From Ectothiorhodospiraceae bacterium (GTDB taxonomy: Bacteria > Pseudomonadota > Gammaproteobacteria > Nitrococcales > Aquisalimonadaceae): DNA of 44,466 nt. The notes under the pieces were generated by a model. It was not told the DNA's origin, did no database searches, and was given only the letters and a program-made list of their open reading frames with translations. A program made the translations under genes and the position numbers. The stretch spans positions 1 to 44,466 of the forward strand of contig SLSJ01000067.1 of assembly GCA_007130525.1 (NCBI GenBank). The letters are read 5' to 3'. This document shows, in pieces, positions 36,188 to 44,231 of the stretch. Position 1 is the first letter of the stretch, and every line of letters starts with the position of its first letter.

Positions 36188-37606
36188 ATGGACTCAGCAA
36201 TCAAGTACAACGAAAACGTGGTGCGTCAGTTCGCGCTGATGACGGTCGTCTGGGGTGTCGTCGGCATGGCCGTCGGCGTGCTGATTGCCGCACAGCTCAT
36301 CTGGCCGGCGCTGAACTTCGACGTGCCCTGGCTCAGCTATGGCCGGCTCAGGCCCCTGCACACCAATGCGGTGATCTTCGCCTTCGGCGGCAGTGCCCTG
36401 TTCGCAACCTCGTACTGGGTGGTACAGCGCACCTGTCACACCCCGCTGTTCCTGCCGCGGCTTGCCTCGTTCACCTTCTGGGGCTGGCAGACCGTGATCG
36501 TGCTGGCAGCGATCACCCTGCCGCTGGGCATCACCCAGAGCAAGGAATATGCGGAGCTGGAATGGCCCATTGCCGTACTCATCGCGGTGGTCTGGATTTC
36601 GTACGCGATCGTGTTCTTCGGCACCATCGTCAAACGCAATGTCAAGCATATCTACGTGGCCAACTGGTTCTATGGCGCGTTCATCATCACCATCGCGGTG
36701 CTGCACATCGTCAACAACCTGGCCATTCCGGTATCCCTGACCAAGTCCTATCCGGTGTACGCCGGCGCCGTGGACGCCATGGTGCAGTGGTGGTATGGAC
36801 ACAACGCGGTGGGATTCTTCCTGACTGCCGGCTTCCTGGGGATGATGTACTACTTCATCCCCAAGCAGGCCAACCGGCCGATCTACTCCTACCGGCTGTC
36901 CATCGTTCACTTCTGGGCACTGATCTCCACCTACATGTGGGCAGGCCCCCACCACTTGCATTACACCGCGCTGCCGGAGTGGGCACAGTCCCTGGGCATG
37001 GTGTTTTCCCTGATCCTGCTGGCGCCAAGCTGGGGCGGCATGATCAACGGCATCATGACCCTCTCGGGTGCCTGGCATAAGCTGCGCACGGATCCGATTC
37101 TGAAGTTCCTGATCGTGTCGCTGTCCTTCTATGGCATGGCCACATTCGAAGGGCCGATGATGTCGATCAAGACCGTCAACGCGCTGTCCCACTACACGGA
37201 CTGGACTATCGGCCACGTACACGCCGGGGCGCTTGGCTGGGTCGCCTTCATCACGTTCGGCGCCATCTATGCGCTGATCCCGAAACTGTATGGCCGTGAA
37301 GTCATGCACAGCGTCAAGGCCATCGAGCTGCACTTCTGGATTGCCACCATCGGCGTGGTGCTCTACATCGCCGCGATGTGGATAGCCGGCGTAATGCAGG
37401 GGCTGATGTGGCGGGCCGTGAACCCGGACGGCACGCTCACCTACACCTTCATCGAATCGCTGGTGGCTACCTATCCGTACTACATGGTGCGGCTGCTGGG
37501 CGGCATCCTGTTCCTGATCGGAATGCTCATCATGGCCTGGAACGTGTGGATGACCACCCGGCCGGTCAAGGCCGGCGAGACCGTGACCGCGGCACAGGAG
37601 GCCTGA
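36188..37606 (+). CDS. ccoN: cbb3-type cytochrome c oxidase subunit I
   Basis: CcoN is the catalytic membrane subunit of the high-affinity cbb3 oxidase and carries haem b, haem b3 and CuB. The 472-residue polytopic protein has His58 (RPLHTN), His205 in [10 protein letters not shown], Tyr249, His255 and His256 (GPHHLHY), and His343 and His345 (IGHVHAG), the expected metal and haem ligands. It is the first gene after the FNR-type promoter, with a leader of about 50 bases. Confidence 0.98.
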
Positions 37607-37608
37607 AC

Positions 37609-38220
37609 ATGAATCATTCCGTTATCGAGAAGAATATCGGCCTGATGGCGGTCCTGATTGCGGTGGTGATCAGCGTGGCGGGTCTGGTGCAGATCGTGCC
37701 GATGCTGTTCCTGAGCGAAACCACGGAACCCATGGAGGGGGTCGAGCCCTACCCCCCGCTGGAGTTTGCCGGACGCGATATCTACGTGCGGGAAGGATGC
37801 TACAACTGCCACTCGCAGATGATCCGTCCTTTCCGCGCCGAAACCGAGCGCTACGGGCACTACTCGGTGGCCGGGGAATTCGTCTATGACCGACCGTTCC
37901 AGTGGGGTTCCAAACGCACCGGCCCTGACCTGGCCCGGGTAGGCGGTCGCTACACCGATCTCTGGCACGAGATCCACATGCTGAATCCGCGGGACGTGGT
38001 GCCGGAATCCAACATGCCGGCCTACCCCTGGCTGGCCGAGCGCACCCTGGACGGAGATTCCGTGGCAAGGCGAATGCGGGCGCAGCGGCGCTGGCTCAAC
38101 GTGCCCTACACCGATGAGCAACTGGAGGAAGCCGCGGAACTGGTGGATGGCAAGACGGAGATGGAAGCCATCATCGCCTACCTCCAATCCCTGGGCACGG
38201 CGATCGAGCGCAATCGCTAG
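37609..38220 (+). CDS. ccoO: cbb3-type cytochrome c oxidase subunit II
   Basis: CcoO is the membrane-anchored monohaem cytochrome c subunit that feeds electrons to CcoN. The 203-residue protein has one N-terminal transmembrane helix (about 12-34), the haem motif CYNCH (64-68) and Met136 in ESNMPAYPW as the likely axial ligand. It follows ccoN by two bases. Confidence 0.97.
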
Positions 38221-38234
38221 AGAGGCAGATTCAC

Positions 38235-38417
38235 ATGGATATCAACACTTTTTACGGACTGATCACGCTGGTGCTGATGATCATCTTCGTGGCAATCGTT
38301 TTCTGGGCATACAGCAGCAAGCGCAAGGAAAGCTTCGACGAAGCGGCCCGCCTGCCGCTGGAGGAAAACCGCGAACATTCCGGACACGACCGGCGCGAGG
38401 ACAAGGGACATGAGTAG
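38235..38417 (+). CDS. ccoQ: cbb3-type cytochrome oxidase small subunit
   Basis: CcoQ is a small single-helix protein that stabilises the assembled oxidase. The 60-residue product has one transmembrane segment (about 6-26) and a charged cytoplasmic tail. It lies between ccoO and ccoP and overlaps ccoP by eight bases. Confidence 0.92.
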   Translation: MDINTFYGLITLVLMIIFVAIVFWAYSSKRKESFDEAARLPLEENREHSGHDRREDKGHE

Positions 38418-39327
38418 CTTCTGGAGCTGGTATATAGCCATCATCTCGCTGGCGAATATTCTCGCCTGCGTCTGGCTGATCCGCTGGACGGCGAAGAAAC
38501 GCCCGGGCGAGGCCGCGGAGCACGAAACCACAGGTCACGAGTGGGACGGCTTGCGGGAGTACAACAACCCGATGCCCCGCTGGTGGTTGTGGCTGTTCTA
38601 CATCTCGATCGTCTTCGGCCTGATCTACCTGGTCCTGTACCCGGGACTGGGCAACTTCCAGGGCGTGCTCGGATGGTCCCAGTACAGCGCCTGGGAGGAC
38701 GAGGTGGAACGCGTCGAGGAACAGGTATCCCCGCTGTTCGCGAGCTATGCGGAAATGCCGATCCCGGAACTGGCGGAAAATGATGAGGCCATGCAGACCG
38801 GGCGGCGGCTGTTCGGCAACAACTGCGCGGTCTGTCACGGCGCCGATGGCGGCGGACGACCCGGCTTTCCCAATATCGCCAACAACGTCTGGCAATGGGG
38901 TGGCGAACCCGACGAGATCCGCAAGTCCGTTATGGATGGCCGTCAGGCGGTCATGCCGCCCATGGGCGCCGCCCTTGGCGAGGACGGTGTCGAGGAGGTG
39001 GCTGCCTACGTCTTCAGCCTCAGCGGACGTGATGCACCGGAAGACCTGGTAAGCCGCGGTGCCGAGCGGTTCGCGGCGCAGTGCGCCGCCTGTCATGGCC
39101 CGGACGGCCAAGGCAACAAGGCGCTCGGGGCGCCCAATCTCACCGACGACAACTGGACCTATGGCGGCGGGCTGGAGGCGATCAAGACCTCGATCCGCGA
39201 CGGCCGTCGCGGCCGCATGCCCGCCCAGAAAGAGCTGCTGGGCGAAGATCGCGTTCACGTGCTGGCCGCCTACGTCTACAGCCTTTCCGCGCATGAACGG
39301 GAACAGGAGGCGGGATCCGATGACTAA
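38410..39327 (+). CDS. ccoP: cbb3-type cytochrome c oxidase subunit III
   Basis: CcoP is the dihaem cytochrome c subunit. The 305-residue protein has two N-terminal transmembrane helices (about 6-26 and 59-79), as in the Pseudomonas type. Two periplasmic cytochrome c domains follow, with haem motifs CAVCH (139-143) and CAACH (225-229). Its final bases overlap the small membrane protein gene by eight bases. Confidence 0.97.
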   Translation: MSSFWSWYIAIISLANILACVWLIRWTAKKRPGEAAEHETTGHEWDGLREYNNPMPRWWLWLFYISIVFGLIYLVLYPGLGNFQGVLGWSQYSAWEDEVERVEEQVSPLFASYAEMPIPELAENDEAMQTGRRLFGNNCAVCHGADGGGRPGFPNIANNVWQWGGEPDEIRKSVMDGRQAVMPPMGAALGEDGVEEVAAYVFSLSGRDAPEDLVSRGAERFAAQCAACHGPDGQGNKALGAPNLTDDNWTYGGGLEAIKTSIRDGRRGRMPAQKELLGEDRVHVLAAYVYSLSAHEREQEAGSDD

Positions 39328-39571
39328 GAAACGCCTCCTCCGAAGCGTGGGGGGCACGCTCTGGCCATCGTTTCTGACGGCGGCGTTCGCCTCCGTGGTG
39401 TTTTTCGCCAACATCGATCCGGAGACGCTGCATATGCAAACCCTGCCGGACTGGCGGATCAGCCGCATGACGGGCTATGCCATCGGCTTTTTCATGTTCT
39501 GGGGTGTGGGACTGGCGTCCAGCATCATCACGTTCGTGCTCACGGACGGCGGCCCACGGGAGTCGACATGA
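39320..39571 (+). CDS. Small two-helix membrane protein in the cco operon, unknown function
   Basis: I do not recognise this 83-residue protein. Hydrophobic segments at about 13-31 and 49-75 predict two transmembrane helices with a short polar loop between them (about 32-48). AGGAGG at 39305-39310 lies nine bases before the ATG. The start overlaps ccoP by eight bases and the stop overlaps ccoG by four, so translation is coupled on both sides and it should be made together with the oxidase. An assembly or accessory role for cbb3 is inferred from context only. Confidence 0.82.
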   Translation: MTKKRLLRSVGGTLWPSFLTAAFASVVFFANIDPETLHMQTLPDWRISRMTGYAIGFFMFWGVGLASSIITFVLTDGGPREST

Positions 39572-40956
39572 CACGACCGGAAATGCCGGCGGAAGACGCC
39601 GGCATGTATGTTGCCCGGGAAAAGATTCATCCGCGCGAGGTCAAGGGCAGGTTCCAGAACCTGCGCAACCTGGCGGTAATCGTGCTGCTCGGCATCTTCT
39701 ACGGACTTCCCTGGGTGCAATGGGACGGGCGTCAGGCAGTCCTGTTCGATCTGCCGGTACGCCAGTTCCATATCTTCGGTCTGACTTTCTGGCCACAGGA
39801 CTTCCTGTATCTGGCGCTGCTGCTGATCATCGCCGCCCTGACCCTGTTCTTCTTCACCGCGCTCGCAGGCCGGCTCTGGTGCGGCTATGCCTGCCCGCAG
39901 ACCGTGTGGACCGAAGCATTCATCTGGATGGAGCGCTGGACCGAGGGCAACCGCCAGAAACGCATCAAGCTGGACAAGTCGCCCTGGAACCGGGAGAAGG
40001 TCGTTCGACGAGGCAGCAAGCATCTGCTGTGGGTGCTTTTTGCCCTGTTCACCGGGGTCACATTCGTCGGCTACTTCACGCCCATCACCGAGCTGGTCGG
40101 GAGGGCCGTCAGCCTCGATCTGGGACCGTGGGAAACCTTCTGGCTGCTGTTCTACGGCTTTGCCACCTGGGGCAATGCCGGATTCCTGCGCGAGCAGGTC
40201 TGCATTTACATGTGTCCCTACGCACGCTTCCAGAGCGCCATGTTCGACCGCAACACGCTGATCATCTCCTACGACGAGAAGCGCGGCGAACCGCGTGGCG
40301 GGCGGCCCCGCGGGGTGGAGCCCCGGAAACGCGGGCTTGGCGACTGTATCGACTGCAATCTCTGCGTCCAGGCCTGCCCCACCGGGATCGATATCCGGGA
40401 GGGACTGCAGTACGAGTGCATTGCCTGCGCGGCGTGCATCGATGCCTGCGACAGCGTCATGGACAAGATGAACTATCCGCGGGGGCTGATCCGCTACTCC
40501 ACCGAAAACGCCATGGAGGGCAAGAAGGTCCGGACCCTGAGGCCGCGGGTACTGGTCTACGGTTTTCTTCTGCTGGCGCTCATCACCGGAGTTCTGGTCA
40601 GCCTCACCCAGCGCACGCCGCTGGCGGTTGAAGTGCTGGCCGACCGCAACGTCATATACCGCGAGGTGGACTGGGAAACCATAGAGAATGTCTACACGGT
40701 GCGCATCCTGAACAAGGATCGCGTCAGCCACGCGTACACGCTGACGGTTGAGGGCCTGCCCGGTATCGAGGTCATTACGCGCTCGGAACAGATTCGCGTC
40801 GGACCGGGCAGCACCGCCAGCGAGGTGGCCCGGGTCCGGGTCCCACGGGACGCCGTGGAGGGAGTGGGCAATCCGTTTCGCCTGATCATGCAGTCGGTGG
40901 ATGACCCGAGCATCCGCACCGTAAACAACGCGCGGTTCAACGCGCCCTCTGAATGA
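39568..40956 (+). CDS. ccoG: Cytochrome c oxidase accessory protein CcoG (FixG/RdxA)
   Basis: CcoG is a membrane polyferredoxin thought to reduce Cu(II) for cbb3 assembly. The 462-residue protein has several transmembrane segments, the GYACPQTVW and CIYMCPYARFQ motifs, and a ferredoxin domain with CIDCNLCVQACP and CIACAACIDAC, which can hold two 4Fe-4S clusters. A C-terminal immunoglobulin-like domain (about 350-460) follows. It overlaps the small membrane protein by four bases. Confidence 0.96.
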   Translation: MTRPEMPAEDAGMYVAREKIHPREVKGRFQNLRNLAVIVLLGIFYGLPWVQWDGRQAVLFDLPVRQFHIFGLTFWPQDFLYLALLLIIAALTLFFFTALAGRLWCGYACPQTVWTEAFIWMERWTEGNRQKRIKLDKSPWNREKVVRRGSKHLLWVLFALFTGVTFVGYFTPITELVGRAVSLDLGPWETFWLLFYGFATWGNAGFLREQVCIYMCPYARFQSAMFDRNTLIISYDEKRGEPRGGRPRGVEPRKRGLGDCIDCNLCVQACPTGIDIREGLQYECIACAACIDACDSVMDKMNYPRGLIRYSTENAMEGKKVRTLRPRVLVYGFLLLALITGVLVSLTQRTPLAVEVLADRNVIYREVDWETIENVYTVRILNKDRVSHAYTLTVEGLPGIEVITRSEQIRVGPGSTASEVARVRVPRDAVEGVGNPFRLIMQSVDDPSIRTVNNARFNAPSE

Positions 40957-41050: not shown

Positions 41051-41560
41051 ATGAACGATGAACAGACTGGGCCCTGGTACCGTCAATTCTGGTTCTGGTT
41101 CGTTATGGCTCCACCCATGGCCTCCATCGTTGTGGGCCTGAGCCTGGTTGGCATAGCCATAACACACGGTGACAGCCTCGTTGCGGACGACTACTCGCAG
41201 GCCGGACGTGCGCTGCACAAGAGTCTTGAGCGCGAACGCGCAGCGGCGGAACTGGGTCTGGACGGCACCATGATAGTGGACCGCGAAGCGGGCGTGGTAA
41301 CCATCCACCTGCAGGGGCTGGAAGAAATGCCGGAACGCCTGCAACTCCTGCTTGCGCATCCGACCCACGCGGAGCGGGACGTGGACCTGGAACTGGAGCG
41401 TAACAGCGCCGGGCTGTACCGGGCGAGCGCGCGCCGCCCGGTGGACGGCCGCCACTACATTCGCCTCCAGCCCGATGACGGCGGCTGGTTGCTGGCCGCG
41501 GAACTTGGCGGGACCGACGCCGAAATGTCACTGGCGCCTCGCAACCGGAACGCCGAATGA
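41051..41560 (+). CDS. ccoH: cbb3 oxidase assembly protein CcoH (FixH)
   Basis: CcoH is a single-span membrane protein needed for cbb3 assembly. The 169-residue product begins [15 protein letters not shown], the usual FixH signature, with one transmembrane helix (about 12-37) and a periplasmic domain. A GAAAGGAG-type ribosome binding site lies upstream. It overlaps ccoI by four bases. The 94-base gap from ccoG is the longest inside the operon. Confidence 0.94.
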
Positions 41561-44040
41561 CACAGGCCTGCAGCTGCTTTCATTGCGGTGAACCAGTCCC
41601 GCCGGACCTCGGGCTTGCGGTCACTGTCGACGGTGAACCGCGCCCGGTCTGCTGTGTTGGCTGCCACGCCGTCGCCAGCACCATTATCGGTGCCGGCCTC
41701 GATGCCTTTTACCAGTTCCGGCCCGAACCCGCCGGCCGTCCGGAAGAAACACCGGAGTACGATCCGGGGCGTTACGCAAGCTTCGACGAACCACGCGTTC
41801 AGAGGGACTTTGTCTACCGCAACGAGGGCGGTCCATGCGAGGCCACCCTGCTGGTGGACGGACTCTATTGCGCCGCCTGCGGCTGGCTGATCGAACGCAG
41901 CCTCGCCGATGCGCCCGGCGTTGATGAAGTGCGCGTCAACCCGGCCACCGGCCGCGCACTGTTACGCTGGGATCCGGCCAGAGTGCAGCTGAGCCGTTTG
42001 ATGGCCCACATGGGCAGACTCGGCTACAAGCCGCACCCGGTGTTGCCCGAAGCCGCTGATTCCCAGGCGATGAAGGAGCGGCGCGGTGCCCTGCGCCGCC
42101 TCATCGTGGCCGGCCTGGGCATGATGCAGGCCATGATGTTCGCTGTCGCGCTGTATTTCGGCCAGTACTACGGCATGGACCCGTCCCATGAGCAGTTCCT
42201 GCGGCTGGTCAGCCTGCTGGTGGCCACGCCGGTGGTCCTCTACGCGGGACTGCCGATATTCCTCGGTGCCGTCCGTGACTTGAGCAACCTGCGTCCGGGA
42301 ATGGATGTTCCGGTGGCGCTCGCAATAGGTACGGGCTACGGCGCCAGCGTCTGGGTCACCTTCATGGGTGGACCGGAAATCTATTTCGACTCGATCACCA
42401 TGTTCACGTTCTTCCTGCTGATTGCCCGGTACGTGGAAATGGGGGCCCGCCATCGCGCCAATGCCACCACCGACGCACTGTCGCGGCTGGTGCCTGCAAC
42501 CGCGATACGGCTACGGGATGACGGCTACGAGGAGGAAGTTCCGTCACGCGACCTGCGGGTCGGCGATCGCGTTCTGGTGCGCCCCGGCGCCACCATCCCC
42601 GCCGACGGCGTTGTACTGCGCGGGCGCAGCAGCGTGGATGAATCCATGCTCACGGGCGAGTCGGATCCATGCAGACGGAGTGTGGGAAACCGGGTGGTGG
42701 GGGGCAGCGTCAACATTCACGACAGCCTTGAAATTCGCATCGAGCAGGTCGGTCAGGACACCATGGTCTCCCATATCGGCCGCCTCCTGCGCCGGGCCCA
42801 GTCGCAGCGTCCCTCGCTCGCGCGGCTTGCCGATACCGTCGGTCGCTGGTTCGTCACCGTGGTGCTGATCGCCGCGGCAACCGTGTTCGCCGTCTGGTGG
42901 CATGTGGATCCGGCCATGGCCTTTCCGGTCACACTGGCCATGCTGGTGGCCACCTGCCCCTGCGCCCTGTCGCTGGCCACGCCAACGGCGCTGGCCGCCG
43001 GCACCAACCGGCTCGCCGGAGACGGTCTTCTTGTCACCCGCGCCGACGCCGTGGAGACGCTGGCCCGGGTCAACCACATGGTGTTCGACAAGACCGGCAC
43101 GCTCACGGAGGGTCGCCTGAGCGTCGTCGAGACTCAGGTTCTGGATTCGCTGACCAAGTCCCGGGCGCGTGAGATTGCCGCCGCCCTGGAACACCATTCC
43201 GAACATCCCATTGCCCGCGCCTTCAGGCAGCAGCCCGCGGTCGCGCCCGCCGAGAACGCGGCGGTCATCCGTGGCGCCGGCATTGAGGGCGAGGTTGACG
43301 ATCGTTGCTATCGGATCGGACGCCCCGACTGGGTGGCGGAACTCTCGGGCAACGCTCCCGATCCGCGCTTCAGCGAAGGCGCATGGATCCTGCTCGGTGA
43401 CAGCGCCAGCCTGCTCGCCGCATTCCGGGTCGCCGATCAGTTGCGACCCGAGGCTGCGGCAAGCATCGCCGCCCTGCAGGCACGGGGTATTTCGGTTGAA
43501 ATCGCCAGCGGTGATGCGCCCGGACCGGTGGCGGATGCCGCAAAGCGGCTTGGAATAAGCGCCTGGCGCGCGCGCATGTCTCCCGAAGACAAGCTGGCCC
43601 GCCTGCAGGATCTGCAGGCGGACAACGCCGTCGTGCTGATGGTGGGGGACGGAATCAATGACGCACCGGTGCTCGCCGGCGCCAATGTGTCCGCCGCCCT
43701 GAATGAAGGGACCGCACTGGCGCAGACCAGCGCCGGCATGATCCTGCTCGGCGGCCGGCTGGATCGCATCACTACCGGCTTGGGCACAGCGCGGCGCACC
43801 CTGCGTGTCATCCGTCAGAATCTCGCCATGTCCGCGTGTTACAACGCCAGCATGCTGCCATTGGCGGCCGCGGGCCTGGTTCCACCTTGGCTCGCCGCCA
43901 TCGGGATGACGCTGAGTTCGCTGGTGGTCGTGCTCAACGCGCGCCGCCTCAACCGCAGGGGCCGGGGAAAGATCACCGGCCCTGGGGCGCAACACGTCCC
44001 GGGATCCGGAAAACCCGTGGAGGGAGGTTCGACCGCATGA
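41557..44040 (+). CDS. ccoI: Copper-translocating P1B-type ATPase CcoI (FixI)
   Basis: CcoI exports copper across the inner membrane for insertion into cbb3 oxidase. The 827-residue protein has an N-terminal cysteine-rich zinc-ribbon-like segment (CSCFHC and CCVGCH, 6-37), a heavy-metal-associated domain with CAAC at 105-108, the transmembrane CPC at 467-469, phosphorylation site DKTGT from Asp511, the EHP motif of the nucleotide domain and GDGINDAP from 697. Together these define the CopA2/FixI group. It overlaps ccoS by four bases. Confidence 0.97.
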
Positions 44041-44231
44041 ACATCATCTTCGTCTCCATACCCATCAGCCTGCTGCTGCTGGCGATCGCCATCTGGGCCT
44101 TTTTCTGGGCGGTCCGCAGTGGCCAGTACGACGATCTTGACTCACCCGCCTACTCGATCCTGCTGGACGAGGAAACCGACCGCAGGAAGCGGCAGCGGGA
44201 TGAAACCGGTGTGGAGCGGAACGAGGATTGA
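44037..44231 (+). CDS. ccoS: cbb3 oxidase maturation protein CcoS
   Basis: CcoS is a small membrane protein needed for haem and copper insertion into cbb3. The 64-residue product begins [15 protein letters not shown], with one transmembrane helix, followed by [19 protein letters not shown], the diagnostic CcoS motif, and a charged tail. Confidence 0.96.

Follow-up and report, generated by a model that had tools for sequence, protein, structure and literature searches.

The window, that is, the whole stretch of DNA that was analysed (44,466 nucleotides), carries a cbb3 oxidase operon on the + strand with the gene order ccoN-ccoO-ccoQ-ccoP-X-ccoG-ccoH-ccoI-ccoS-like (Table 1), and the small gene X between ccoP and ccoG is the subject of this study. 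A first-pass annotation had described X as encoding a two-helix membrane protein with a strong ribosome binding site and overlaps with both neighbours, and this description proved accurate: AGGAGG lies 9 nt before the ATG, 8 nt are shared with ccoP, whose stop is at 39327, and 4 nt (ATGA) with ccoG, whose start is at 39568. The CcoG of the window has two CX2CX2CX3C motifs and a FixG_C domain. Upstream of ccoN stands a perfect FNR/ANR-type box, judged against the consensus for such sites, and sites with at most one mismatch number 3 in the window versus a mean of 0.4 in 20 mononucleotide shuffles. From the place of this box before ccoN we presume that the operon, and X with it, is expressed at low oxygen.

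Table 1. Features of the cco operon and of gene X, in coordinates of the window
Feature	Position	Strand	Basis
Perfect FNR/ANR-type box TTGATNNNNATCAA	36091-36104	.	0 mismatches; 83 nt before ccoN
ccoN	36188-37606	+	TIGR00780 match at 36203-37585, 764.7 bits
ccoO	37609-38220	+	ORF, served as tblastn query; assigned without family model
ccoQ	38235-38417	+	FixQ PF05545, E 2.6e-12
ccoP	38410-39327	+	TIGR00782, E 4.9e-86, 288.6 bits
Shine-Dalgarno of X, AGGAGG	39305-39310	+	9 nt 5' of ATG, read from sequence
X, small two-helix gene (family X)	39320-39571	+	ORF, 83 aa plus stop
Predicted helix 1 of X, residues 3-31, with W15 P16 S17 F18	39326-39412	+	AlphaFold2
D33-P34 of X, start of predicted short helix 34-41	39416-39421	+	D in 111/123, P in 122/123 members
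Predicted helix 2 of X, residues 49-75, with R49, Y53, G56-F57, W61	39464-39544	+	AlphaFold2; R49 in 103/123 members
ccoG, cupric-reductase type assembly factor	39568-40956	+	TIGR02745, 539.2 bits; FixG_C, E 1e-24
ccoH	41051-41560	+	FixH, E 9.6e-34
ccoI, P1B-type ATPase	41557-44040	+	TIGR01525, E 1.2e-153
ccoS-like small protein	44037-44231	+	ORF judged by eye, without FixS model

The product of X has hydropathy peaks at residues 9-33 and 51-78, and AlphaFold2 predicts two long helices with a short one between them (mean pLDDT 80.5, pTM 0.63). In an alignment of 123 members, which were collected by similarity to X of the window and are hence biased towards its residues, W15, F18, Y53, F57 and W61 are invariant, and A21, F29, D33, P34 and G56 are nearly so. 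No column of that alignment holds a conserved His, Cys or Met, the maxima being 12 of 120, 46 of 123 and 35 of 123 members respectively, which makes copper or haem binding by X itself unlikely. The loop between the helices is acidic, with K and R exceeding D and E in only 4 of 123 members, and each end of the protein is basic in 77 of 123; by the positive-inside rule this suggests a hairpin whose two ends are cytoplasmic and whose short acidic turn is periplasmic. Cysteines are seen at two sites near the presumed cytoplasmic end of helix 2, corresponding to positions 72 and 78 of the window protein (46 and 44 of 123 members), which itself has neither.

Comparison with known structures gave a best E of 0.22 in a sequence search of the PDB, no Foldseek match to the model at E<=0.001, and VIA-align Z values no higher than 5.6, reached by a plain hairpin. 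No model of Pfam or NCBIfam covers the family, window X and all 123 members having been scanned. The sole Pfam match of window X, to 7tm_6 (E 0.034), lies below its cut-off, and matches of one or two of the 123 members to unrelated membrane families were treated as chance. As to the accessory proteins of cbb3 oxidases, FixH (PF05751) matches neither window X at E<=10 nor the 123 members at E<=0.01, FixQ (PF05545) does not match window X at E<=10, and FixS (PF03597) matches neither window X nor the members. The initial view that X differs from CcoG, CcoH, CcoI, CcoS and CcoQ is therefore supported by the models tried. There is likewise no Pfam match of window X or the members to DUF4006, the family of CcoX of Campylobacter jejuni, which is assumed to be in the Pfam set. 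C. jejuni belongs to another phylum than the X carriers. Copies of X in plasmid records are annotated as hypothetical protein in two of three cases, the third record having no gene table there. A literature search found no such gene named among the matches listed, with most subscription papers outside reach, so absence from print is not established. Judged by sequence, X is a new, so far unnamed family within a known functional kind.

A sequence search with X of the window gave matches in 101 of the 369 sampled genomes of its class, the gammaproteobacteria, and in 25 of 40 relatives (own genome included in both), and relatives are also present at 14 loci of named genomes, which range from Ectothiorhodospiraceae to Thiohalophilus and Massilia. 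Two weak matches of the class search, in G148 and G334 (loci L136 and L137; G and L are our labels for genomes and loci), had no profile match and were dropped. The profile of the 123 members matched 113 class genomes at E<=0.01. Six of these (G098, G218, G239, G244, G317 and G340) were taken out of the counts, as their sole matches lie inside frames of about 510 aa and were taken as chance; two of these frames (L249, L250) resemble NuoM by eye. The remaining 107 genomes comprise 100 of 369 with X proper, own included, and 7 with a distant branch. Frames of 391-393 aa at X in G147, G355 and G259 were considered as gene fusions and rejected: X is there an ORF of 94-95 aa between ccoP and ccoG, and the long frames are taken as a by-product of GC-rich DNA. 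Among 200 genomes sampled from the phylum the profile matched 9, own included, all of them own or of the same class; the share of other classes in that sample is not stated, and a limit of X to its class is thus only indicated.

These counts bear on what had been supposed at the outset. Lack of conservation in relatives with the same operon had been named as an outcome that would refute the initial interpretation, and X turned out to be conserved. X is a genuine member of the cbb3 operon, and that its frame exceeds chance is borne out both by its homologues in 100 of 369 class genomes and by the dN/dS of 0.12-0.42 between window X and 12 same-family genes; among the 78 pairs which this set forms, pN/pS has a median of 0.44 and a maximum of 0.71. 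The further idea of a lineage-specific protein is too narrow, X with its 100 of 369 class genomes being confined to no single lineage.

For the gene neighbourhoods we fetched 100 loci of the 102 sequence matches, which leaves aside the window itself and G150, for which the short locus L006 was used; two of the 100 were without profile support, and 98 loci were counted. X adjoins ccoG in 95 of the 98, or in 97 of 100 copies when the window and L006 are included. It lies upstream of ccoG in 79, mostly with ccoP just before it (L127 was counted here by hand label), and downstream in 16, with ccoH in between in 15 of them and not in L077. No ccoG is near X in the other three (L104, L150, L161), detached copies whose fetched stretches hold no cco gene; in two genomes with a detached copy (G156, G123) CcoG and CcoN are encoded elsewhere, so that X has parted from ccoG there. 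The picture of X as locked between ccoP and ccoG thus describes the prevalent arrangement and fails for the 16 downstream and 3 detached copies. A ccoP match is absent at 7 of the 95 ccoG-adjacent loci, two at contig ends (L075, L100) and five others (L085, L116, L144, L166, L149). At L149 (G285), X and ccoH follow just a piece of ccoG on a stretch without ccoP, and another CcoG and a CcoN are encoded elsewhere on the contig. Two members found by the profile only lie exactly between ccoP and ccoG; that of G013 (E 1e-7) was counted and that of G025 (E 3e-3) was not.

Co-occurrence is similarly close: among the 100 genomes with X, 99 have a CcoG match and 97 a CcoN match (E<=1e-20, relatedness uncorrected). 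The exceptions are G238, which is 55% complete and has neither, and G165 and G274, which have no CcoN match. A cbb3 biogenesis factor is expected to be encoded with cco genes and to co-occur with them, and X is so found, with 97 of 100 copies adjoining ccoG and 97 of 100 genomes having CcoN.

Several genomes separate X from the oxidase genes. In G284 and G154, X stands with ccoG-ccoH while ccoN and ccoO are on another contig, a ccoQ-like match remaining beside X in G154. In G165 and G274, both 100% complete, X lies directly before a CcoG core which is 41-43% identical to the window CcoG and has both CX2CX2CX3C (4Fe-4S) motifs, with a TIGR02745 score under the curated cut-off; these genomes gave no match to ccoN (E<=1e-20), ccoO or FixH (E<=1e-3), and the G165 protein, the only one of the two scanned for it, none to FixG_C at E<=1e-5. 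We call G165 and G274 Xanthomonas-like because their locus resembles a plasmid region of X. sacchari (L167), where the same pair of X and CcoG core is found. In each of the two, the interval between X and a divergently oriented neighbour holds a perfect FNR-type box, some 115 nt from X on its upstream side, and the box may therefore serve that neighbour too. In L167 the box, roughly 160 nt before X, falls within the start of an opposite-strand globin gene as annotated. The Xanthomonas-like loci L144, L166 and L167 combine X and a CcoG core with perfect FNR-type boxes, and have hemN or globin alongside; hemN adjoins X in Variovorax (annotated) and in L166 (by eye), and on the X. sacchari plasmid it is found two genes from X. 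Homologues of CcoG, such as YccM of E. coli, were already known from bacteria that lack cbb3 (available text of PMC7558416), and a lone CcoG is thus not special in itself.

Conversely, many cco genes are found without X. CcoG and CcoN matches with no X occur in 109 of 369 class genomes (E<=1e-20, which includes weak matches under the curated cut-offs), and the CcoG tree has one X-less clade of 17 among 152 rows (support 98), with a matching CcoN clade of 18 rows (support 95). Both trees were made by FastTree with midpoint rooting, L127 and L188 being labelled by hand, and they give no frequencies because the X-less rows were chosen by hand. CcoG therefore does not depend on X in general. Among genomes with two cco copies, G035, G124 and G205 are examples that have X at one copy only, and the rows L190-L203 belong to a cco-operon clade without X in any row examined, several of them being the second copy of an X-carrying genome. 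The X profile found no X in 31 X-less loci, and inspection by eye of the ORFs of 12 such loci found no X-like replacement in the gap from ccoP to ccoG (or ccoH). Long gaps between ccoP and ccoG were seen in two X-less operons, at L180:1962-2487 (~525 nt) and L209:3685-4056 (~370 nt), the latter with a hydrophobic ORF of 45 aa, unlike X by eye.

From the distance matrices of 58 complete operons, the partial correlation of X with each Cco protein was 0.25 for G, 0.17 for O, 0.16 for N, 0.05 for H and -0.04 for P. When column numbers were made equal, the protein that X tracked best in 200 draws was G 84 times, O 63 times, N 48 times, H 4 times and P once, which makes a weak case for a link between X and CcoG. 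In the same equal-column test H most often favoured P (43 of 100) and P most often favoured H (44 of 100), in agreement with the binding of CcoH to CcoP reported in the available text of PMC8267372.

On balance we favour the reading that X is a biogenesis factor in the form of a membrane hairpin, which works together with the cupric reductase CcoG in the assembly of CcoN and its CuB site, and not an obligate subunit of the oxidase. It is built on the gene, the family, its conservation, its linkage to ccoG and its persistence with a CcoG core where cbb3 was not found. In Rhodobacter capsulatus CcoG is a cupric reductase, Cu(II) being reduced in the cytosol; without it both CcoN and oxidase activity are severely lowered, and its electron donor is described as unknown in the accessible parts of these sources (PMC7558416, PMC8475189). 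With the topology suggested above, the hairpin of X would pair with CcoG in the membrane and would help it to act on a CcoN(-O) intermediate during CuB loading. As it has no conserved His, Cys or Met, X should work through docking or stabilisation, with no binding of copper or haem of its own; a ligand-free hairpin that goes with CcoG and neighbours N and O fits such a factor. CcoG (RdxA, FixG) itself, the genetic partner of X, is a ferredoxin-type reductase, whereas X has no cofactor motif, and both occur without cbb3 in some genomes. CcoH (FixH) is, like X, a membrane protein of the assembly module, and X comes after it in 15 of the 98 fetched loci; however, the operon has its own ccoH, and X distances do not track H. 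Since cbb3 oxidases serve respiration at very low oxygen and the copper route to the active site of CcoN is only partly understood, a family present in about a quarter of the sampled class genomes, nearly always beside ccoG and covered by no Pfam or NCBIfam model, is a concrete candidate for a CcoG partner, and genomes in which X and a CcoG core stand alone would allow X to be studied in a simple setting apart from the oxidase.

The best-placed rival, though we hold it unlikely, makes X a small subunit, structural or stabilising, which is held in the mature CcoNOP oxidase like CcoM or CcoQ. The prevalent position upstream of ccoG, mostly just after ccoP, the overlap with ccoP in the window and the modest distance correlation with N and O agree with a subunit, as do precedents for small single-helix proteins with oxidase roles, at least in the text available from the sources. 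CcoM of Pseudomonas stutzeri, required for oxidase stability and not for activity (PMC8267372), is like X a small hydrophobic accessory protein outside the N-O-Q-P-G-H-I-S set; it is set apart by its 36 aa (PMC10433244) and one helix, against 83 aa, two helices and a place beside ccoG for X. CcoX (Cj1486, DUF4006) and CcoY of C. jejuni are small membrane proteins encoded just after ccoP, whose role was obscure until mutants were made, and deletion of ccoX abolishes oxidase activity while a CcoY mutant has it lowered (PMC8267372); they too have a single helix where X has two, and CcoX exemplifies a small membrane protein near ccoP that proved essential. Yet X is kept in two complete genomes without a CcoN or CcoO match, goes with ccoG-ccoH apart from ccoN-ccoO in two others, has no partial correlation with P, and is missing from related cbb3 operons. 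An accessory role, which the first-pass annotation had left between subunit and assembly factor, is still the best reading, and the occurrence of X beyond the slot between ccoP and ccoG and beyond cbb3 favours the assembly factor. Bolder, and doubtful, is a closer bond with the reductase: X would be the second, so far missing component of a cupric reductase of the CcoG type, its hairpin would complete or gate CcoG, for example on the electron-entry side, and the two proteins would form a low-oxygen unit serving cbb3 in most hosts and free of cbb3 in xanthomonads.

The distant branch of 7 among the 107 family genomes matches X in profile-profile comparison with probability 98.9 and E 1.3e-17. 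Three of its members are near aa3 genes (L175:1314-1589, L176:3917-4213 and L171:3840-4142), none of them beside ccoG. The member of G219 begins 21 nt after ctaB (haem O synthase) in a Pfam-confirmed cluster ctaG-COX3-DUF2909-SURF1-SCO1-ctaB, where the DUF2909 protein, likewise a small membrane protein of an oxidase assembly cluster, is a separate gene; in G319 it lies 29 nt after ctaB in the same layout by eye, with COX15 confirmed nearby; and in G083 it shares its strand with coxB and coxA, from which an opposite-strand gene separates it, coxB being confirmed. As for the others, the member of G233 is divergent from ccoNOQP, those of G137 and G350 stand alone, and that of G346 is at a contig end. 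The tie of X to cbb3 that had been asserted therefore stands as operon membership and is not strict, given these aa3 relatives and the two complete genomes with X and a CcoG core only.

The aa3-linked relatives raise the prospect that the family may be a general helper of haem-copper oxidases, for instance in inserting haem or in stabilising the catalytic subunit early on; it would then have a cbb3 and an aa3 branch, and the link to CcoG would be incidental. The hemN genes at or near X would suit this as well, but it is improbable, because the distant type is found in only 7 of 107 family genomes, three of them near aa3 genes, all seven also have CcoG and CcoN matches, and X has no conserved haem ligand. 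We hold it very improbable that X, as a membrane protein of low-oxygen stress or regulation, merely travels in the FNR regulon. The FNR-type boxes before the operon and before the Xanthomonas-like pair, and the three detached copies, might hint at this, but X adjoins ccoG in 97 of 100 copies, Pfam and NCBIfam scans recognised no signalling domain, and the detached locus L104 has no FNR-type box at <=2 mismatches.

Apart from X, the CcoP of the window has an extra hydrophobic N-terminal stretch (38410-38520) ahead of its FixP_N domain, which begins at residue 37, and this suggests a CcoP with two membrane helices.
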